Below are positions 13,295-21,098 of a DNA stretch of 35,377 nt, one piece after another. The DNA comes from Bacteriovoracaceae bacterium (GTDB taxonomy: Bacteria; Bdellovibrionota; Bacteriovoracia; Bacteriovoracales; Bacteriovoracaceae): assembly GCA_947446575.1 (NCBI GenBank), contig CANFHC010000031.1:1-35377 (forward strand), read 5' to 3'. The translations under genes were made by a program, and so were the position numbers. The notes under the pieces were generated by a model, which was not told where the DNA came from, searched no databases, and saw only the letters and a list, made by a program, of their open reading frames with translations. Numbering within the stretch: position 1 is the first letter of the stretch; the number at the start of each line of letters is the position of its first letter.

Positions 13295-14005
13295 ATGATC
13301 ACAAATCACCTTATAAATTCTATTTACCGAGCGACCGAAGGAGAAGGGGTCTTTTTAGGACGGCCGCAAATTTTCGTGCGCTACCAAGGGTGTGCGATTG
13401 GTTGCCTTAACTGTGATTCAAAAGATACTTGGGATTTCACAGAAGATATGGGGCAAAGCCTAGAAGCCGTTATGGAGCAAATCCAAAAAGTTGGTTTTAA
13501 TGGGGCCATTAAAAATGTTTCTATTACTGGCGGGGATCCGCTTCATCCAGCTCATGTTCCGCACGTTCTTGCTCTCGTCAAATTATTAAAAGAAAAAAAA
13601 TACTATATTAATCTAGAAGCTGCTGGCTCTAGAGTCGTCGATGAAATTTTTGATTTAGTAGACTATGTGAGCTTTGATTTTAAAACTCCTTCAACAGGTG
13701 TGAAAACTCCTCTTAAAAATATTTCTAAAATGATTGCTCAGTATCCGGGGAAATTTCAGGTAAAGGCCGTTATTGCTGATAAGTTTGATTTTTCAACGAC
13801 GCTTGAAGCTTATAAAATGCTCGCCAGTGAAGATAAAGGAATGCCTTTCCCATGGGTACTAACTCCTTGTTACAATACTAATGAAGAATTTCCTTTAGAA
13901 AGATTTACTCAAGCGCTTTCATGGAATGAAGAGCAGGGCGGACTTTTTAGAGTCATCGGTCAGCAACATAAATGGATCTTTGGTCCAGATAAAAAACAAG
14001 TTTGA
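13295..14005 (+). CDS. queE: 7-carboxy-7-deazaguanine synthase (radical SAM)
   Basis: A 236-residue radical SAM enzyme that turns 6-carboxy-tetrahydropterin into CDG on the way to preQ0 and queuosine. The N-terminus has NSIYRATEGEGVFLGRPQIF and the cluster motif QGCAIGCLNC with C33, C37 and C40. The SAM glycine motif reads TGGDP (78-82), where most members have GGEP. It is short, as expected for QueE. No ribosome site is evident before the ATG. A weak TTGACG (13258-13263) sits so close to the start that a nearly leaderless mRNA is possible. It pairs functionally with tgt elsewhere in the window. Confidence 0.93.
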   Translation: MITNHLINSIYRATEGEGVFLGRPQIFVRYQGCAIGCLNCDSKDTWDFTEDMGQSLEAVMEQIQKVGFNGAIKNVSITGGDPLHPAHVPHVLALVKLLKEKKYYINLEAAGSRVVDEIFDLVDYVSFDFKTPSTGVKTPLKNISKMIAQYPGKFQVKAVIADKFDFSTTLEAYKMLASEDKGMPFPWVLTPCYNTNEEFPLERFTQALSWNEEQGGLFRVIGQQHKWIFGPDKKQV

Positions 14006-14176
14006 ACAAGTTTTAAGGCATTTTTGCCTAAGTCCACTTACCAAAAAAAACAAACGCTATCTGAATAAGCTGTGTGGAAAAAGTTTATTCAAGTTAAGTG
14101 ATTGTCTAGCTGAAAGTAAGACACTTCTTGCTACATTTGCATTTCAATTAGTTTAAAGATTAGCTAAAATACCCTT

Positions 14177-14653
14177 ATGGACGATAAAAAACCAAAACCT
14201 ATTGATGTGAATAATATTAATCTTGAGTTAATGAAACTTAAGGTCACCGATATGCCATCATTGCTAGAGTATGCTCACACTGTTGGTGGATTTGCTATTG
14301 TCCCGACTAATGAAGGGCAAATCAAAAGTCATGCTCGCGATGCTATGAAGGAGCAAACTGAAGAGCAATTGAGTCTTATTTTTGAACAAATGAAAACGTT
14401 GGCCCGCCAAGTTCAAGATATAAAAAAACGAGTTTATGTTTCGGATCTTATTTATAATGTGCAAATGACTTTCACTCCCTTAGTTGGGAAAATTTATTAT
14501 CTTTATGAAATGCCTGAAGGAAAAAGATACTTGTCTCTCATTTCTCCCAAAGAGTGGGGGGACAAAATGGATGGGCAAGCGTATATCGCGGAAGTTCGTC
14601 TCAATGCGGATCATACTTGGAAAGTTATTCATTCGAGCATTGAATTTGATTAA
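14177..14653 (+). CDS. DUF2452 family protein
   Basis: A 158-residue cytoplasmic protein. The central helical segment, the IYNVQMTFTPLVGKIYYLYE segment, and RYLSLISPKEWG followed by LNADHTWKVI are the recognisable DUF2452 pattern. No function is established for the family. It stands alone after queE and overlaps the stop of the convergent membrane-anchored gene by 4 bases (TTAA, 14650-14653). Confidence 0.8.
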   Translation: MDDKKPKPIDVNNINLELMKLKVTDMPSLLEYAHTVGGFAIVPTNEGQIKSHARDAMKEQTEEQLSLIFEQMKTLARQVQDIKKRVYVSDLIYNVQMTFTPLVGKIYYLYEMPEGKRYLSLISPKEWGDKMDGQAYIAEVRLNADHTWKVIHSSIEFD

Positions 14654-15318
14654 GCTTCAAAATGTATTTTTAATTTCAATAACAAGTCAGAAATTGTTTT
14701 TAACTGCTCTTCTAGCATTGCTGGATTTTCATAAACATCCTCAGATAAACAAATGTATCTAAGAACATTTTTTCTTTTAATCAAAAAATTTAAGATATGA
14801 AATTCATGAGCAATACATAAGTGAGCAAAGTTTTTTTGAAATAATTTGGATGTTGCAATCGCAAGCTCTGGTTCAGAATTAAGAACTTGCTTTATTTTAT
14901 CGAGTATTTCTTCATTTTGAGATCCGATTAAAAAATCAAACCCTGAAATAGAAACCACTTTGTGGGGTGGCAGTCGCAGAAAATTTCCAGTTGTATATTT
15001 ACTTGATTCCGCGTTTCCCAATATTATTTTCGGGCATGATTCAACATAACTCCAAAGCACCGGAAAACTTCCACCAACGTTTGTTGATATACCAGCTCCA
15101 CGAGCAATGCGAGAAATATTAAATATCGCTTTATTGTATGAAAATTGAATTGTTCCTAAAGGCATAAAAAATTTTGCATTAAAATAATTTAGAAACTTGA
15201 GGTATTTCTTTTTTTCTTTCAGAGGTTTTAAAACAAAAAGAATAAACATGAAAAAGATAAAGAAGAAAAGAATAATTCCAAAGGGAGAAAAAAGTATTTC
15301 TATTAGAGCTTCACTCAC
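14650..15318 (-). CDS. Membrane-anchored protein of unknown function
   Basis: About 222 residues if the start is the GTG at 15318, whose GTGA overlaps the TGA stop of the upstream SprT/DUF2786 gene. ATGs at 15351 and 15336 would give a larger overlap. No start has a strong ribosome site, so coupling decides it. A single strong membrane helix (FGIILFFFIFFMFILFVL) lies near the N-terminus, followed by a basic stop-transfer stretch (LKEKKKYLK) and a soluble cytoplasmic-type domain of about 180 residues. No family recognised. Co-transcription with the upstream gene is likely. Confidence 0.65.
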   Translation of the reverse strand: MSEALIEILFSPFGIILFFFIFFMFILFVLKPLKEKKKYLKFLNYFNAKFFMPLGTIQFSYNKAIFNISRIARGAGISTNVGGSFPVLWSYVESCPKIILGNAESSKYTTGNFLRLPPHKVVSISGFDFLIGSQNEEILDKIKQVLNSEPELAIATSKLFQKNFAHLCIAHEFHILNFLIKRKNVLRYICLSEDVYENPAMLEEQLKTISDLLLKLKIHFEA

Positions 15319-16709
15319 TTTTTCGCCGCAATACATTCGTGATTCACACATTTTGCCAAAGTTTTCCCTTGGGACATTTCATCCCAAGTCGCACAACTAA
15401 TTGCCGCTCCTTCAATTCGATAACATTTTGAAGCAACATCAAAAAACTTAATATGAGCAGCTTCAAGTGGATGCCCACAAGGATTTGGGACAATTTTGCA
15501 ATCTTCATCTTTAGAGCAATCAAGCCATGATGGATTATTGTTTCGACAAGCACTTCCATGCGCAGATAGAGATGTGAGTATGAACAGGAAAAAGAAAGAA
15601 TTCAAAAGAAATTGTTTTGAAGAGCTTCCAGAATTGAGTGCTGGCTTAATGGAGAGGCTTGATCCTTTCACTTTTCCTGCATTATGAGCATCCGCATTGT
15701 GCATTCCAGCTGAGAGACTTGAATGACCAATTCTTGGATAAACAATTCTTAAATTTTTCTGAATATTTTTTTCTATTGCTACAAGTTCAGATCCGCTTGC
15801 GATCGTTGATTTTTGTTTTTGAATTTTTTCCACGTATCCTTTTGCCACACCATTAAAGAATGAATTCTTGCTAGATGTACCTTTTAGTTTTGGATTTTCT
15901 TTTTGAGTTTGTTTCCAAATAACTTCTAGTTCATGATCTAGAAAATTGGCGACGTAATCTGCAAGTTCTACTGATGTTCTATCTCCAATGACTTCAAGAT
16001 AAAAAATCCCACGGCCGTGATTAAAAACGGGCGAGACAAAAAAAGTTTTTAAGATTTCATAGATGGCCACATGTTTGGCACTTTTTCTGGAAGCCTCTAA
16101 AACGCGTTTGACATAAACAATTTCTTCAGTCGATTGAGCAGACTTACTTAAATCTAAATTGTGCTCTAAAAGGAGTTGATTCGCTTTAAGAGTCGCCAAT
16201 TCTCGCTCATGCGTATTATCAGAAGAGGCGAGAGCAAGTAATTTTTTTATACGACTCAATAGCCTTTCAGTTTTTTCGTTTTCAATTTCTACGCGGTCAT
16301 TTTCCAAATCAATATTGGCGTAGGCCCCATAAACTTCTGGGCCCCATCCAAAACTAATGCAAGCCTTGTGAAATTCTTCTCCATGCAAAACTTGTGGACC
16401 GTATAAAAGGTAGCACACGAAATGTGCGAGCTCGTGACGGATGACGTTTTTTAAAACTTCAGTTTTAGCGAGATACATAAGCTTTTTTGAAAGCCCTAAT
16501 TCGTAAGAGCGAGAATCGAAATAACCTAAACGGGAGTTGTCTTCGAAGACGACGATATTGAGAGGGTAGAGAATGCCTTTATAAAAAATTCGGCTTCTCT
16601 CCATTTTAAGACCCATTTCAGCGTTCACGATCTCGCGTGCGAGAATACGAACTCGAGTAATAAAAACTGAAATGGTTTCTGAATGTAAAAACATAGAAGG
16701 AGCATACAC
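15315..16709 (-). CDS. SprT-like/DUF2786 protein fused to signal peptide and eight-cysteine domain
   Basis: A 464-residue open frame with three parts. Residues 1-130 are SprT-like: HELAH (92-96) with HGEEFH (109-114) gives the zinc-metalloprotease-type site. Residues about 145-360 match DUF2786 and its C-terminal partner domain, starting KTERLLSRIKKLLALASSD and ending in the family-like GKVKGSSLSIKPALNSG. Residues 365-387 are a hydrophobic segment ending SLSAHGSA, a convincing signal peptide. It is followed by a 77-residue domain with cysteines at 388, 398, 404, 411, 429, 439, 454 and 459, typical of secreted eight-cysteine proteins. No start codon with a ribosome site was seen for the last part. 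Either two genes have fused through a lost stop, or the protein is a real chimera. There is no clear ribosome site at the ATG. Confidence 0.8.
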   Translation of the reverse strand: MYAPSMFLHSETISVFITRVRILAREIVNAEMGLKMERSRIFYKGILYPLNIVVFEDNSRLGYFDSRSYELGLSKKLMYLAKTEVLKNVIRHELAHFVCYLLYGPQVLHGEEFHKACISFGWGPEVYGAYANIDLENDRVEIENEKTERLLSRIKKLLALASSDNTHERELATLKANQLLLEHNLDLSKSAQSTEEIVYVKRVLEASRKSAKHVAIYEILKTFFVSPVFNHGRGIFYLEVIGDRTSVELADYVANFLDHELEVIWKQTQKENPKLKGTSSKNSFFNGVAKGYVEKIQKQKSTIASGSELVAIEKNIQKNLRIVYPRIGHSSLSAGMHNADAHNAGKVKGSSLSIKPALNSGSSSKQFLLNSFFFLFILTSLSAHGSACRNNNPSWLDCSKDEDCKIVPNPCGHPLEAAHIKFFDVASKCYRIEGAAISCATWDEMSQGKTLAKCVNHECIAAKK

Positions 16710-16796
16710 TTTTGATGATCAATATTCAAAACTGAAATAGATAAAGAATAAAAGAAGGAGATTGCTCTAATAAATAAACCTCATGGTAAGAGGGTT

Positions 16797-16907
16797 TTGA
16801 CACTGAAAGCTCTTGTGTTAATTTTTAAGATTTTGTAATTGCTTGTAACAATTCACAAATTACTTAAGAATTAATCTTTGGCAGGGGAGGAGTAATCCTC
16901 CCTTTTT
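16797..16907 (+). ncRNA. Candidate small RNA ending in an orphan terminator
   Basis: This lies in a 670-base stretch (16710-17383) with no convincing gene. TTGACA (16797-16802) is a perfect -35, but the -10 (TAATTT region, 16819-16824) is poor. A stem-loop follows: TTGTAATTG (16833-16841) pairs with CAATT-C-ACAA (16849-16858) with one bulge. The perfect terminator comes next (16885-16907). Expected RNA is about 75 bases. No ORF with a usable ribosome site ends at this terminator. Candidate only. Confidence 0.35.
16885..16907 (+). terminator. Orphan intrinsic terminator
   Basis: GGGAGGA (16885-16891), loop GTAA, TCCTCCC (16896-16902), then TTTTT. It is a textbook plus-strand terminator, yet the nearest upstream gene is on the minus strand. 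Confidence 0.85.
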
Positions 16908-17066
16908 CTTTGTATTAATAATCAAGAATTGATTTGGACTTCAGTAAATCAGTCACACCAGATGTATCTATATGATTAATGATTGAAATAAGCTTGAAAA
17001 TACATGAAGTCTTAAAAAATCGATAATAAATTGTTGAAAAAAATTTAAGCTTTGTTAAGATATAAA

Positions 17067-17115
17067 CTGGTGGATACAGATTGAAAAACTTGCAGGTTGT
17101 TTCTTCATCCACCAG
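17067..17115. other. Long hairpin in gene-free stretch
   Basis: CTGGTGGAT (17067-17075) pairs perfectly with ATCCACCAG (17107-17115). Inside it GAAAAAC and GTTGTTTC form a second stem with one bulge around a TTGCAG loop. The strand is unknown. It may belong to an RNA ending at the hairpin at 17260-17293. Confidence 0.4.
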
Positions 17116-17259
17116 AAAACTTCACAAATTCTTGATGAGCCTTTTCAGGCTTCTAACACAATGTCCATAATTTATTCTTGAAAGAAAAAATTTGAATGAG
17201 TGATTTTTCAGATTCGAAACCAATGATCATACAACCAAAATTTGAGCATAATTGCAAAG

Positions 17260-17293
17260 AATAAATAAGGGTCTATATTGACCCTTATTTATT
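17260..17293. terminator. Perfect 14-bp terminator-like hairpin
   Basis: AATAAATAAGGGTC (17260-17273) and GACCCTTATTTATT (17280-17293) form a perfect stem with a 6-base loop and T-rich 3' arms on both strands. On the minus strand it lies 90 bases after the small secreted gene and probably terminates it. On the plus strand it could end an RNA from 16908-17259. Confidence 0.65.
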
Positions 17294-17383
17294 TTGAAAT
17301 GTAGCTTACGAAGCAATTGTTGATAACGCAATAAGCGGTTTGGGTGATGAGTTTTTTTCGAGTGGAATTTTCCCAAAAACTTT

Positions 17384-17764
17384 CTATAATTGCGTACAGA
17401 ATTCTTCTAATCCTTTAAATGCCGAAACTGTTGTAGTCCAAACGGAATAATCAGTTTCTGATTTTACTTTGTTAAGTTCAATTTCAAAGTAGCCAGTTAT
17501 GGGGTGAGTTCCATCGAACAAGTAGCGAGCTTCAAAACTACTAACAACAACATATTGAAAAAGATCTTCAGGAGCAGAGTTTTTAATTTCAATTGTTTTA
17601 AGTTCACTGGCTGAAGAAACATGAGTGCAGTTGTTTTCAATATAACGCCCGATAATAGTTTTATCTTCTAAACTAAGGTCAGTTTTATTTTGAAATGTAA
17701 TTTGGCTGCTGGCAAAAGAGTTTGAAAAAACTAAAATCAATGCGATACAGATAAATGCCTTCAT
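17384..17764 (-). CDS. Small secreted protein of unknown function
   Basis: A 126-residue protein with a clear signal peptide (KAFICIALILVFSNSFA, cleavage likely before SSQI). The mature part is about 105 residues with two cysteines (NNC and the near-terminal EEFC), possibly one disulphide. A strong AAGGAG site precedes the ATG by 7 bases. No domain recognised. It is a single-gene unit, probably ended by the hairpin at 17260-17293. Confidence 0.65.
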   Translation of the reverse strand: MKAFICIALILVFSNSFASSQITFQNKTDLSLEDKTIIGRYIENNCTHVSSASELKTIEIKNSAPEDLFQYVVVSSFEARYLFDGTHPITGYFEIELNKVKSETDYSVWTTTVSAFKGLEEFCTQL

Positions 17765-17833
17765 AAGTACTCCTTAAAGAAATTTCTAATAGCGGTTAGG
17801 TACCATATTACTTCAAGAGCAAGTATTAAACTT

Positions 17834-18067
17834 ATGTTAGGATTTTGTTCAAAAAAGATCGACTACATAGATTTTAAAGCGATTGAAGATCTTAATGGCT
17901 TTGAGGTGCCCTTGGTTGCATATCTCTTCGTCTAAACATCCTAAATGAGGTCCGTGATCCTTTTCCTAAATTTAGAGTTCTTGGATCGTTGAGCGAAGAC
18001 TTTATGTGAATCAGGAGATTACGAACCATTACTTATTAATACAGCGATAACTTGTTTAAAATTTTCT
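17834..18067 (+). other. Possible degraded coding sequence
   Basis: Gene-free by ordinary criteria. Short open pieces in different frames look protein-like: IDYIDFKAIEDLNGF (from 17834, stop at 17933), and LNILNEVRDPFPKFRVLG in another frame (stop at 18007). They could be remnants of a frame-shifted gene next to the broken hydrolase. I cannot identify the ancestor. Confidence 0.2.
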
Positions 18068-18091
18068 GTTTGTTTAAGATTAGCGAAAGAA

Positions 18092-18688
18092 ACCTACAAT
18101 AATTTTTTTCATGGCGGTCCTGAAATAAAAATTGAAAATATGCTTTTGCAGCTTGATGAAATCGTCAATTCACTTTCTGGTAAAATTATTCTTCTTGGAC
18201 ATTCATGGGGTGCTGTTTTAGCTACAGAGTATGCAGGAAGAAATCAGTCCAAGCTATCTGGCCTAGTTATAATGAGTACGGGGTTAAGCGATATGCATTG
18301 GAAAGATGAATACAATAGAGAATTGAAAGACCTCGGATTAGAAAATGCGGAACCTGAACAAATTTTTCTCACACCAGAATAAGTTGAACTAGGAGAAATG
18401 ATTCTTGATAAAATATTGGACACATTTTCAGAAGAAACTTTTAACAGCATAAAGCAAAGCTATATTGAAAAATATGATGTAACTCCACTATTGAAGACAT
18501 TAAAAATACCTGTCATCAATATTTTTGGAGAAAAAGATGTACGTTTTCCTGCTCGTGTATCTAAAACATTTCGCTCATACAATAACGATTTGATTGATTT
18601 TCAAATATCAAATTCTGGTCATTTTCCATTCTTACAAAGTGTTGGAAGAAAACAAATTTATAAAATTCTAAAAGAGAGCTTGCTCTAA
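18092..18688 (+). pseudogene. Alpha/beta hydrolase interrupted by an in-frame stop
   Basis: One reading frame carries the pieces of an alpha/beta-hydrolase. HGGP (18110-18121) is the oxyanion-hole motif of the proline-iminopeptidase group. GHSWGA (in 18140-18382) is the nucleophile elbow with its serine. GEKDVRFPA supplies the acid, and SNSGHFPF supplies the catalytic histidine (in 18398-18688). A TAA at 18380-18382 splits the frame; the two halves are in phase, so a single nonsense change explains it. The distance from HGGP to the elbow is too short for this family, suggesting an additional deletion, and no good start lies upstream. AGGAG sits just before the ATG at 18398, so separate translation of the 96-residue C-terminal half cannot be excluded. 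Confidence 0.7.
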
Positions 18689-18812
18689 ATCACTACTTGT
18701 AAACTTTTTGCTCCAACCATTTCACAAATAAAATATTTTCCTTATTAGTATTCAAATAAATCGTTTTTTAAGCATCCTATAATTAAGATGCCCTCTTAAT
18801 TTAGGAGGTATT

Positions 18813-19280
18813 ATGAAAGATCAAAATTTTAGTGAAAAACCACCACGCTTAAAAGATTTAGTTAACCAACATGTTATGGGAGATGTATGGATAAGGGATA
18901 CTCCATTTGGGCCAGTGACTGATTCTCTCAAAATAGCGGAGAAATTTGAAATTGATCACAAATATATTCTTAGATCTATAGACAAATGCATAGAAGAATT
19001 ATCCACAGAGCCCAAATTTGAGCTTTGTAAAAACTTAATAGAAAACAGACACTTAGCCGGCCCCAAAGGCAGAGAAAGGAGTTATCGAAAAATTGATATC
19101 ACAGAGTTTGGGTTGGCGCTTTTGCTCCTATATATAAACTCACCAAAGGCCCGTAAAATTTCCGCTGAAATTCTCTATCGCTTTTTCATCCTAAAAACAT
19201 ACCTGGATGGTTTAAATGTTAGACAAATTGGGGCCATCAAAGGTTATTACCGCCAAAAAATGAGACATGAGAAAAAATAA
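18813..19280 (+). CDS. Rha-like phage regulatory protein
   Basis: A 155-residue protein resembling the phage Rha family. It has a helix-turn-helix-like SLKIAEKFEIDHKYILRSID segment, then YRKIDITEFGLALLLLYI, then KARKISAEILYRFF, in the order seen in Rha (the MTRDGF..LAMG region). Rha proteins of lambdoid phages interfere with infection of certain hosts and act as regulators. A perfect AGGAGGT site precedes the ATG by 5 bases. No other phage gene lies nearby, so it is an orphan, perhaps domesticated or a prophage remnant. Distant Rha or a related DNA-binding protein: moderate confidence. Confidence 0.6.
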   Translation: MKDQNFSEKPPRLKDLVNQHVMGDVWIRDTPFGPVTDSLKIAEKFEIDHKYILRSIDKCIEELSTEPKFELCKNLIENRHLAGPKGRERSYRKIDITEFGLALLLLYINSPKARKISAEILYRFFILKTYLDGLNVRQIGAIKGYYRQKMRHEKK

Positions 19281-19383
19281 CATCATAGAAACTTGAGCAT
19301 AAACTAATAGTTATTATTCCAAGCGCTGATTCGATTCTTAGTGGTTTAGATGCGCTAATCTGATGTGGTTTTTAACTCTGCTG

Positions 19384-20061
19384 TTACTTACAGCTAAGCT
19401 TCGTAAACGAACTATAAACTGGAAAGTCACTTGTATGAACATCCGATGCATTTTTTTGTGAAACAACTACAGTATTCATTGCTGCAGCGATTGTTCCATG
19501 GCTACACGACGAGTCTTTACCGAGAATAATCCCGTATGGTGCTTGAAAGTTTGTGAGAGGACGATCGTTCGAGACTAAAGCTGGATAGTTAGGATAAGCG
19601 TTAGGCACTTCACAGTATGAAAGTGTTACGTTATATCCAATAACTTTTCCATTATTAGTTACCTTAGTTACAAACATTAAATCTTTGTAAGCGCTAACTC
19701 CGACATATAAATCCGAAATAGTTCCATTACTCATAAAACCTGATTGCCAATTACCGCCAATAGTTGTCTCTGAAATTGAACCACCATTAACATAATAACT
19801 TACATCATGAGAAAGTCTTTTTTTGCCTTCATTACATTGATTTTGTGATTTAAGTAGCTCAACTTCTTTAATAATTTTTGCAGGTACTAGGAATGTCGAC
19901 ATCATAGCTAAACTTGCTATTTCTCCGCAAGATTCACAATTAGCTTTTGGAGGAGCAATCGCTTTATTAATTCCGGTAGCCGTTGGTACTTCTGGAATTT
20001 GAATTAGATCTTGAGTATAAGCAGTTGAGGAAATCACAAATAATAACAAATACTTTTTCAT
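19384..20061 (-). CDS. Secreted protein of unknown function
   Basis: 225 residues when started at the ATG at 20061, which gives MKKYLLLFVISSTAYTQ as signal peptide with an AAAAGAG site upstream. The in-frame ATG at 20091 would put ten polar residues before the signal and is less likely. The mature part has a CESC pair near the N-terminus and further cysteines (QC, SYC, SSC, SC at the end), consistent with a disulphide-bonded periplasmic or exported protein. No family recognised. Confidence 0.65.
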   Translation of the reverse strand: MKKYLLLFVISSTAYTQDLIQIPEVPTATGINKAIAPPKANCESCGEIASLAMMSTFLVPAKIIKEVELLKSQNQCNEGKKRLSHDVSYYVNGGSISETTIGGNWQSGFMSNGTISDLYVGVSAYKDLMFVTKVTNNGKVIGYNVTLSYCEVPNAYPNYPALVSNDRPLTNFQAPYGIILGKDSSCSHGTIAAAMNTVVVSQKNASDVHTSDFPVYSSFTKLSCK

Positions 20062-20269
20062 ATTAATCTCTTTTAGATTATAAAAATCCATTATTTATTC
20101 GGTTTCAGATAAATTAACTTAAATAATTTTCTAAAACTTATCTTGAAGAGAAAAAATCGGGTATTAATTTAGTTTCAAAAGCTAATGGTTTCAACTCAAA
20201 TTTTGTATTCTTAACTTTCGTATTAATAATCAAGCATCCAAGTAATTAATGTATTTGGTTTGACCGCAC

Positions 20270-20298
20270 AAAAAAAAGGCCCTGCAGTGCAGGGCCTT
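20270..20298 (-). terminator. Terminator of the sdh operon
   Basis: AAGGCCCTGCA (20276-20286) and TGCAGGGCCTT (20288-20298) form a very stable GC-rich hairpin. Read on the minus strand it is followed by eight T residues (20277 down to 20270), 27 bases after the sdhB stop. Confidence 0.93.
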
Positions 20299-20324
20299 GG
20301 AAGTGATAAGAGATAATAATTAAA

Positions 20325-21098
20325 TTAGTTTCTAGAACCGATTGCACCTTTAAACCATTCACGGTTCATGCGAGCGATGTTCTCAATTTTAATTCCTTTC
20401 GGACATTGAGCTTCACACTCAGCTTCGTTCGTACAATTTCCAAAACCAAGCTCGTCCATTTTAGCGACCATTGCCTGAGTTCTAGCTTCGGACTCAATTT
20501 CCCCTTGAGGAAGAAGAGCAAGTTGAGAAATTTTAGCGGAAACAAACAGCATAGCTGAAGCATTTTTACAGCTTGCTACACACGCACCACAACCGATACA
20601 AGCAGCAGCATCCATTGCTAGTTCTGCATTTTCTTGTCCGATTAAAATGGCATTAGCATCTTGTGGGTTTCCTGTATTAACGTTTATGAATCCACCAGCT
20701 GCGATGATTTGATCAAAAGCTCCACGGTCAACCATCAAGTCTTTTAGGACTGGAAAAGCTTTAGCTCTCCAAGGTTCAACAACGATTGTATCGCCATCCT
20801 TAAATTTTCTCATGTGCAACTGACATGTTGTAGTTTGAGATTCTGGACCGTGTGCTTGCCCGTTAATCATCATTGAACACATTCCACAAATTCCTTCGCG
20901 GCAGTCATGGTCGAAGGCAATTGAATCACCTTTTTCTTTAACAAGCTTTGTGTTGAGTTCGTCCATCATTTCTAGGAACGACATATCCGGAGAGATGCCA
21001 TCGAGTTTATAATCGACCATCGCTCCTTTATCTTTTGCGTTTTTTTGTCTCCAAACTTTTAAATTAAGAGACATTGATCCTGCTTTATTTCCACTCAT
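20325..21098 (-). CDS. sdhB: Succinate dehydrogenase/fumarate reductase iron-sulfur subunit
   Basis: A 257-residue electron-transfer subunit of complex II, peripheral on the cytoplasmic side. The [2Fe-2S] ligands are C66, C71, C74 and C92 ([10 protein letters not shown]). The [4Fe-4S] ligands are C167, C170, C173 and C177 ([11 protein letters not shown]). The [3Fe-4S] ligands are C222, C228 and C232. AAGGA precedes the ATG. It is the last gene of sdhCAB, 97 bases after sdhA, with two hairpins in the gap and a strong terminator behind it. The sequence style is that of the b558-type enzymes found in Bacteroidetes, epsilon- and deltaproteobacteria. Confidence 0.96.

Follow-up and report, generated by a model that had tools for sequence, protein, structure and literature searches.

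Apparent in-frame joining of a SprT-like/DUF2786 gene to a putative exported eight-cysteine domain in one Bacteriovoracaceae genome

A single open frame encodes a SprT-like protein and an eight-cysteine domain

The window, i.e. the whole 35,377-nucleotide stretch of Bacteriovoracaceae DNA that was analysed, carries on its minus strand (15,315-16,709) a single open frame of 464 codons counted from a GTG, in which SprT-like, DUF2786 and DUF7168 domains are followed by a hydrophobic segment resembling a signal peptide and by a domain with eight cysteines. The conserved start of this frame is ATG 16,694, five codons inside the GTG (relatives align from M6), and counted from this ATG the protein is likely 459 residues long. 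At the other end, the TGA of the frame (15,317-15,315) and the GTG that starts a membrane-protein gene overlap by 4 bp (GTGA, 15,318-15,315).

The sprT-DUF2786-DUF7168 gene proper, the part common to relatives, runs from ATG 16,694 to Leu369 (15,603-16,694, minus strand), as delimited by the ends of its homologues. We found a SprT-like zinc metalloprotease domain (PF10263) at residues 62-117 (16,359-16,526; Pfam E 1.9e-8), DUF2786 (PF10979) at residues 149-186 (16,152-16,265; E 6.6e-12) and DUF7168 (PF23771) at residues 213-326 (15,732-16,073; E 7e-13). The first two exceed their curated cut-offs (34.5 vs 25.6 bits and 45.6 vs 23.9 bits, respectively), and the DUF7168 match is also above its Pfam cut-off. 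The HExxH zinc motif is intact (HELAH, residues 92-96 in GTG numbering, 16,422-16,436) and invariant in the homologue alignment; by profile and motif, this half is a predicted zinc metalloprotease-like protein. Assignment as the SprT equivalog itself was ruled out, since the protein scores 26.2 bits against NF003421, whose NCBIfam cut-off is 175 bits. Purifying selection acts on the SprT part, with pN/pS of 0.17-0.32 (pN 0.12 and pS 0.70 against the nearest relative, the pair that gives 0.17). An AlphaFold model of the fused protein, built from nine sequences, had a mean pLDDT of 45 and was not interpretable, and the best hit in a PDB sequence search reached an E-value of only 0.32.

The signal-peptide-like segment is FLLNSFFFLFILTSLSA (residues 367-383, 15,561-15,611, minus strand), which lies after Lys365 and exceeds every other 17-mer of the protein in hydrophobicity, with a mean KD of 1.92 vs 1.21 elsewhere; calling it a signal peptide is based on this hydropathy and on the stand-alone members of the cysteine family. 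The eight-cysteine domain follows (C388-C459 in GTG numbering, 15,333-15,548, minus strand) and belongs to an unnamed small exported family, with no match in Pfam or NCBIfam. Searched alone, the 96-residue tail gave weak matches in relatives (best E about 4e-4), mostly short stand-alone exported proteins sharing W-x2-C-x5-C...C...C-x4-C. A profile of relatives made without the window sequence, some of whose members had been gathered with a profile that contained it, finds the window frame at E 4e-8, and the next best of the 516 window frames at 0.39. Since the frame is so clearly set apart, the cysteine part is, on this profile evidence, not a product of chance.

The window tail has the conserved tryptophan and six cysteines in register after the signal-like segment, and it shares the cysteine spacing (W-x2-C-x5-C-x6-C...C...C-x4-C) and the preceding hydrophobic segment with family members L054, L056, L057, L059 and L060. 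Of the 129 family genomes covered by a profile search, 14 contain the module. Most copies are proteins of 90-142 aa carrying a hydrophobic segment at the N-terminus; a few end a longer exported protein, and the link to SprT occurs in the window's genome only. Elsewhere, then, the module either forms a gene by itself, with a start of its own, or ends an exported protein, whereas in the window it lies in frame behind a cytoplasmic protein. The exported proteins that carry it as their C-terminal part (L058, L061 and L069) are about 200 aa long and come from three genomes, including the window's own (contig C9).

Relatives stop where the window reads on

We found matches to the window protein in 37 of 57 relative genomes, its own included (36 without it, of which 13 belong to the genus). 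Across residues 6-369, identity to genus relatives is about 64-84%; these retain HELAH and the same neighbour genes but have their stop at the point that the window reads through, and lack both signal segment and cysteine domain. At all 29 other sprT loci whose 3' ends were read, the gene has its own stop (TAA, TAG or TGA) at about query residue 360-380, and the last conserved motif of the homologues is SIKPALNSGSSSKQFLL or its equivalent. The two closest homologues end SKQFLLSN-stop (84% identical) and SKQFLLV-stop (82% identical), within 1-3 codons of window Leu369, where the window has SKQFLLNSFFFLFIL. Separately, sprT is possibly broken in some species, as its matches in G009 and G010 fall into two frames or pieces (L025 and G010:C457).

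The cysteine domain is absent from every sprT homologue whose 3' end was read, the fused architecture was found in no other genome searched, and viral contigs yielded no independent copy of the junction. The earlier note had described a SprT/DUF2786 frame running into a signal-like segment and eight cysteines, and the open frame, Pfam matches, hydropathy and cysteine profile bear it out; the homologue alignment it called for shows the two halves as separate genes in relatives and the fused form conserved in none. A conserved SprT-cysteine fusion was thus rejected, there being no further instance among the genomes searched, and the idea of a conserved architecture with its periplasmic C-terminal domain tethered by one helix found no support in them. 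A newborn version of that idea, in which cargo insertion created a selected, functional, single-pass SprT/DUF2786 protease tethered to the inner membrane with a periplasmic eight-cysteine sensor or regulatory domain, is in our judgement improbable: the frame is fully open, both halves appear intact and the topology is plausible, with Lys365 before the hydrophobic stretch, but all other genomes searched lack the fused form and cargo turns over at this site.

The DNA homology breaks at a TTGA

When the genus was searched with the DNA, the matches to G002 and G005, the closest relatives, broke off at 15,603-15,604, within a TTGA at 15,602-15,605 (minus strand). The earlier note had suggested checking for a missed stop near 15,610-15,650; that position is slightly off, as homology ends at about 15,603. 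Since past the breakpoint the DNA of the window and that of the relatives are unrelated, the break is probably a recombination or an indel, to judge from the aligned DNA, rather than a point mutation of a stop codon. Here, a candidate TTG start (15,605-15,603) lies in frame and a TGA (15,604-15,602) overlaps it in the +1 frame; on the minus strand the fused form reads CTTTTGAATTC, and an unfused form would read CTTTGAATTC. The fused form is known from one genome only, a draft of 71 contigs.

This geometry bears on whether there are really two genes, separated in truth and joined through a single-base mistake in sequencing or assembly, or through a very recent mutation, in CTTTTGA. Were the true sequence CTTTGA, SprT would end KQFL-stop and the cysteine gene would start at the overlapping TTG by coupled re-initiation. 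The +1-frame TGA overlaps precisely the one in-frame start nearby, altering a single base of the four-T run suffices to give SKQFL-stop overlapping by TTGA (a usual arrangement in operons), the junction between the cysteine part and the membrane-protein gene is likewise a 4-bp overlap, and the cysteine-family gene L057 also begins with a TTG that overlaps its upstream gene. Against this, both closest relatives have the identical CAATTTCTTTT with four T, so that four T are probably ancestral and three would need a further change; moreover, an A after TTG, hence a TGA, is expected by chance about a third of the time. We consider this explanation, the chief doubt about the fusion, unlikely, though far from negligible; if the sequence is in error, the locus is a useful annotation warning.

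The same TTG raises another reading, foreshadowed in the earlier note as a hidden second start, in which the cysteine protein is made mainly from TTG 15,605 inside the sprT frame and the fused polypeptide is a by-product. The segment MNSFFFLFILTSLSAHG resembles a signal peptide and is spaced from the cysteines as expected for the family, whose relatives stand alone. The in-frame TTG and the L057 parallel agree with this part of the note; but L057 has a GGAGA box, whereas within the 15 bases before the window's TTG there is no clear Shine-Dalgarno sequence, and no minus-strand promoter match was found. TTG 15,605 is the only start of its own available to the cysteine part, and no in-frame stop lies upstream of it to permit re-initiation. 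Initiation there would also add to the fusion rather than exclude it. As the main source of the protein, this start is possible but doubtful.

The junction lies at a site of gene turnover

The gene order in relatives is sdhB, sprT, variable cargo, queE and dksA, with two small genes between queE and dksA in most of them, and the window keeps this order. Across relatives, the sprT-queE interval ranges from 25 to 3317 bp and its genes differ by species; in the window (14,006-15,605), it holds the cysteine gene, the membrane-protein gene (14,650-15,318, minus strand; start GTG 15,318), whose homologues in G013 and G001 do not adjoin a cysteine-family gene, and, on the queE side, a DUF2452 gene (14,177-14,653, plus strand), which lies elsewhere in most other genus genomes. 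A queE-like radical SAM gene (13,295-14,005, plus strand) forms the conserved far border. Since the window order is that of the relatives and the cargo between differs, the sprT-queE site is, by this comparison of gene order, a place of gene turnover. Throughout the family it is a variable-cargo site, often with a gene for a small exported or membrane protein.

Gene order also speaks to a chimeric assembly joining two distant loci. The genome is a draft and the join is known in one copy only, but both flanks are conserved neighbours in conserved order and orientation; since the window keeps the relatives' gene order, a long-range chimera is very unlikely, the least probable of the explanations considered.

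Of these explanations we favour, with some reserve, a lineage-specific in-frame join in which cargo came in behind the conserved sprT-DUF2786 gene and the sprT stop was lost. This agrees with the stop loss proposed in the earlier note, which is the best-supported reading, as the homologues end at the point that the window reads through and the halves are separate elsewhere. The cargo would have been the gene for the exported cysteine-rich protein together with the membrane-protein gene, placed directly after sprT. Because the frame is open, ribosomes translating sprT should read through into the cysteine part and make the 459-residue protein, whose SprT/DUF2786 part would lie in the cytoplasm. 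What was once the signal peptide, a candidate on hydropathy, may then serve inside the protein as an export signal or as a membrane anchor, taking the cysteine domain to the periplasm, where signal peptidase might free it; TTG 15,605 may also initiate, yielding the cysteine protein alone. The fusion would be tolerated because the addition comes after the last conserved SprT-DUF2786 residues. On this view, the locus resembles an accident in a single species, at a place where genes turn over, rather than a new and conserved protein.

The locus is a well-bounded example of how a conserved bacterial gene can acquire a foreign export domain in a single step where genes turn over; its breakpoint is placed to within about a base, and many relatives show the unfused state. 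It further points to an unnamed family of small exported cysteine-rich proteins and to the sprT-queE interval as a variable-cargo site. Our paper searches on DUF2786, SprT and DUF7168 and on fusion by stop loss turned up nothing pertinent.

The other side of sprT differs from most relatives as well. There, sdhB adjoins sprT at a spacing of 2-50 bp, whereas in the window sdhB (20,325-21,098, minus strand) lies 3.6 kb away, separated by an insert at 16,695-20,324. This insert carries a Rha-family phage regulator (18,813-19,280), a split and apparently broken alpha/beta hydrolase (18,140-18,382 and 18,398-18,688) and small exported proteins. Elsewhere in the window, 1103-2092 encodes an exported protein without a Pfam match that is very rich in glycine, with long G runs.
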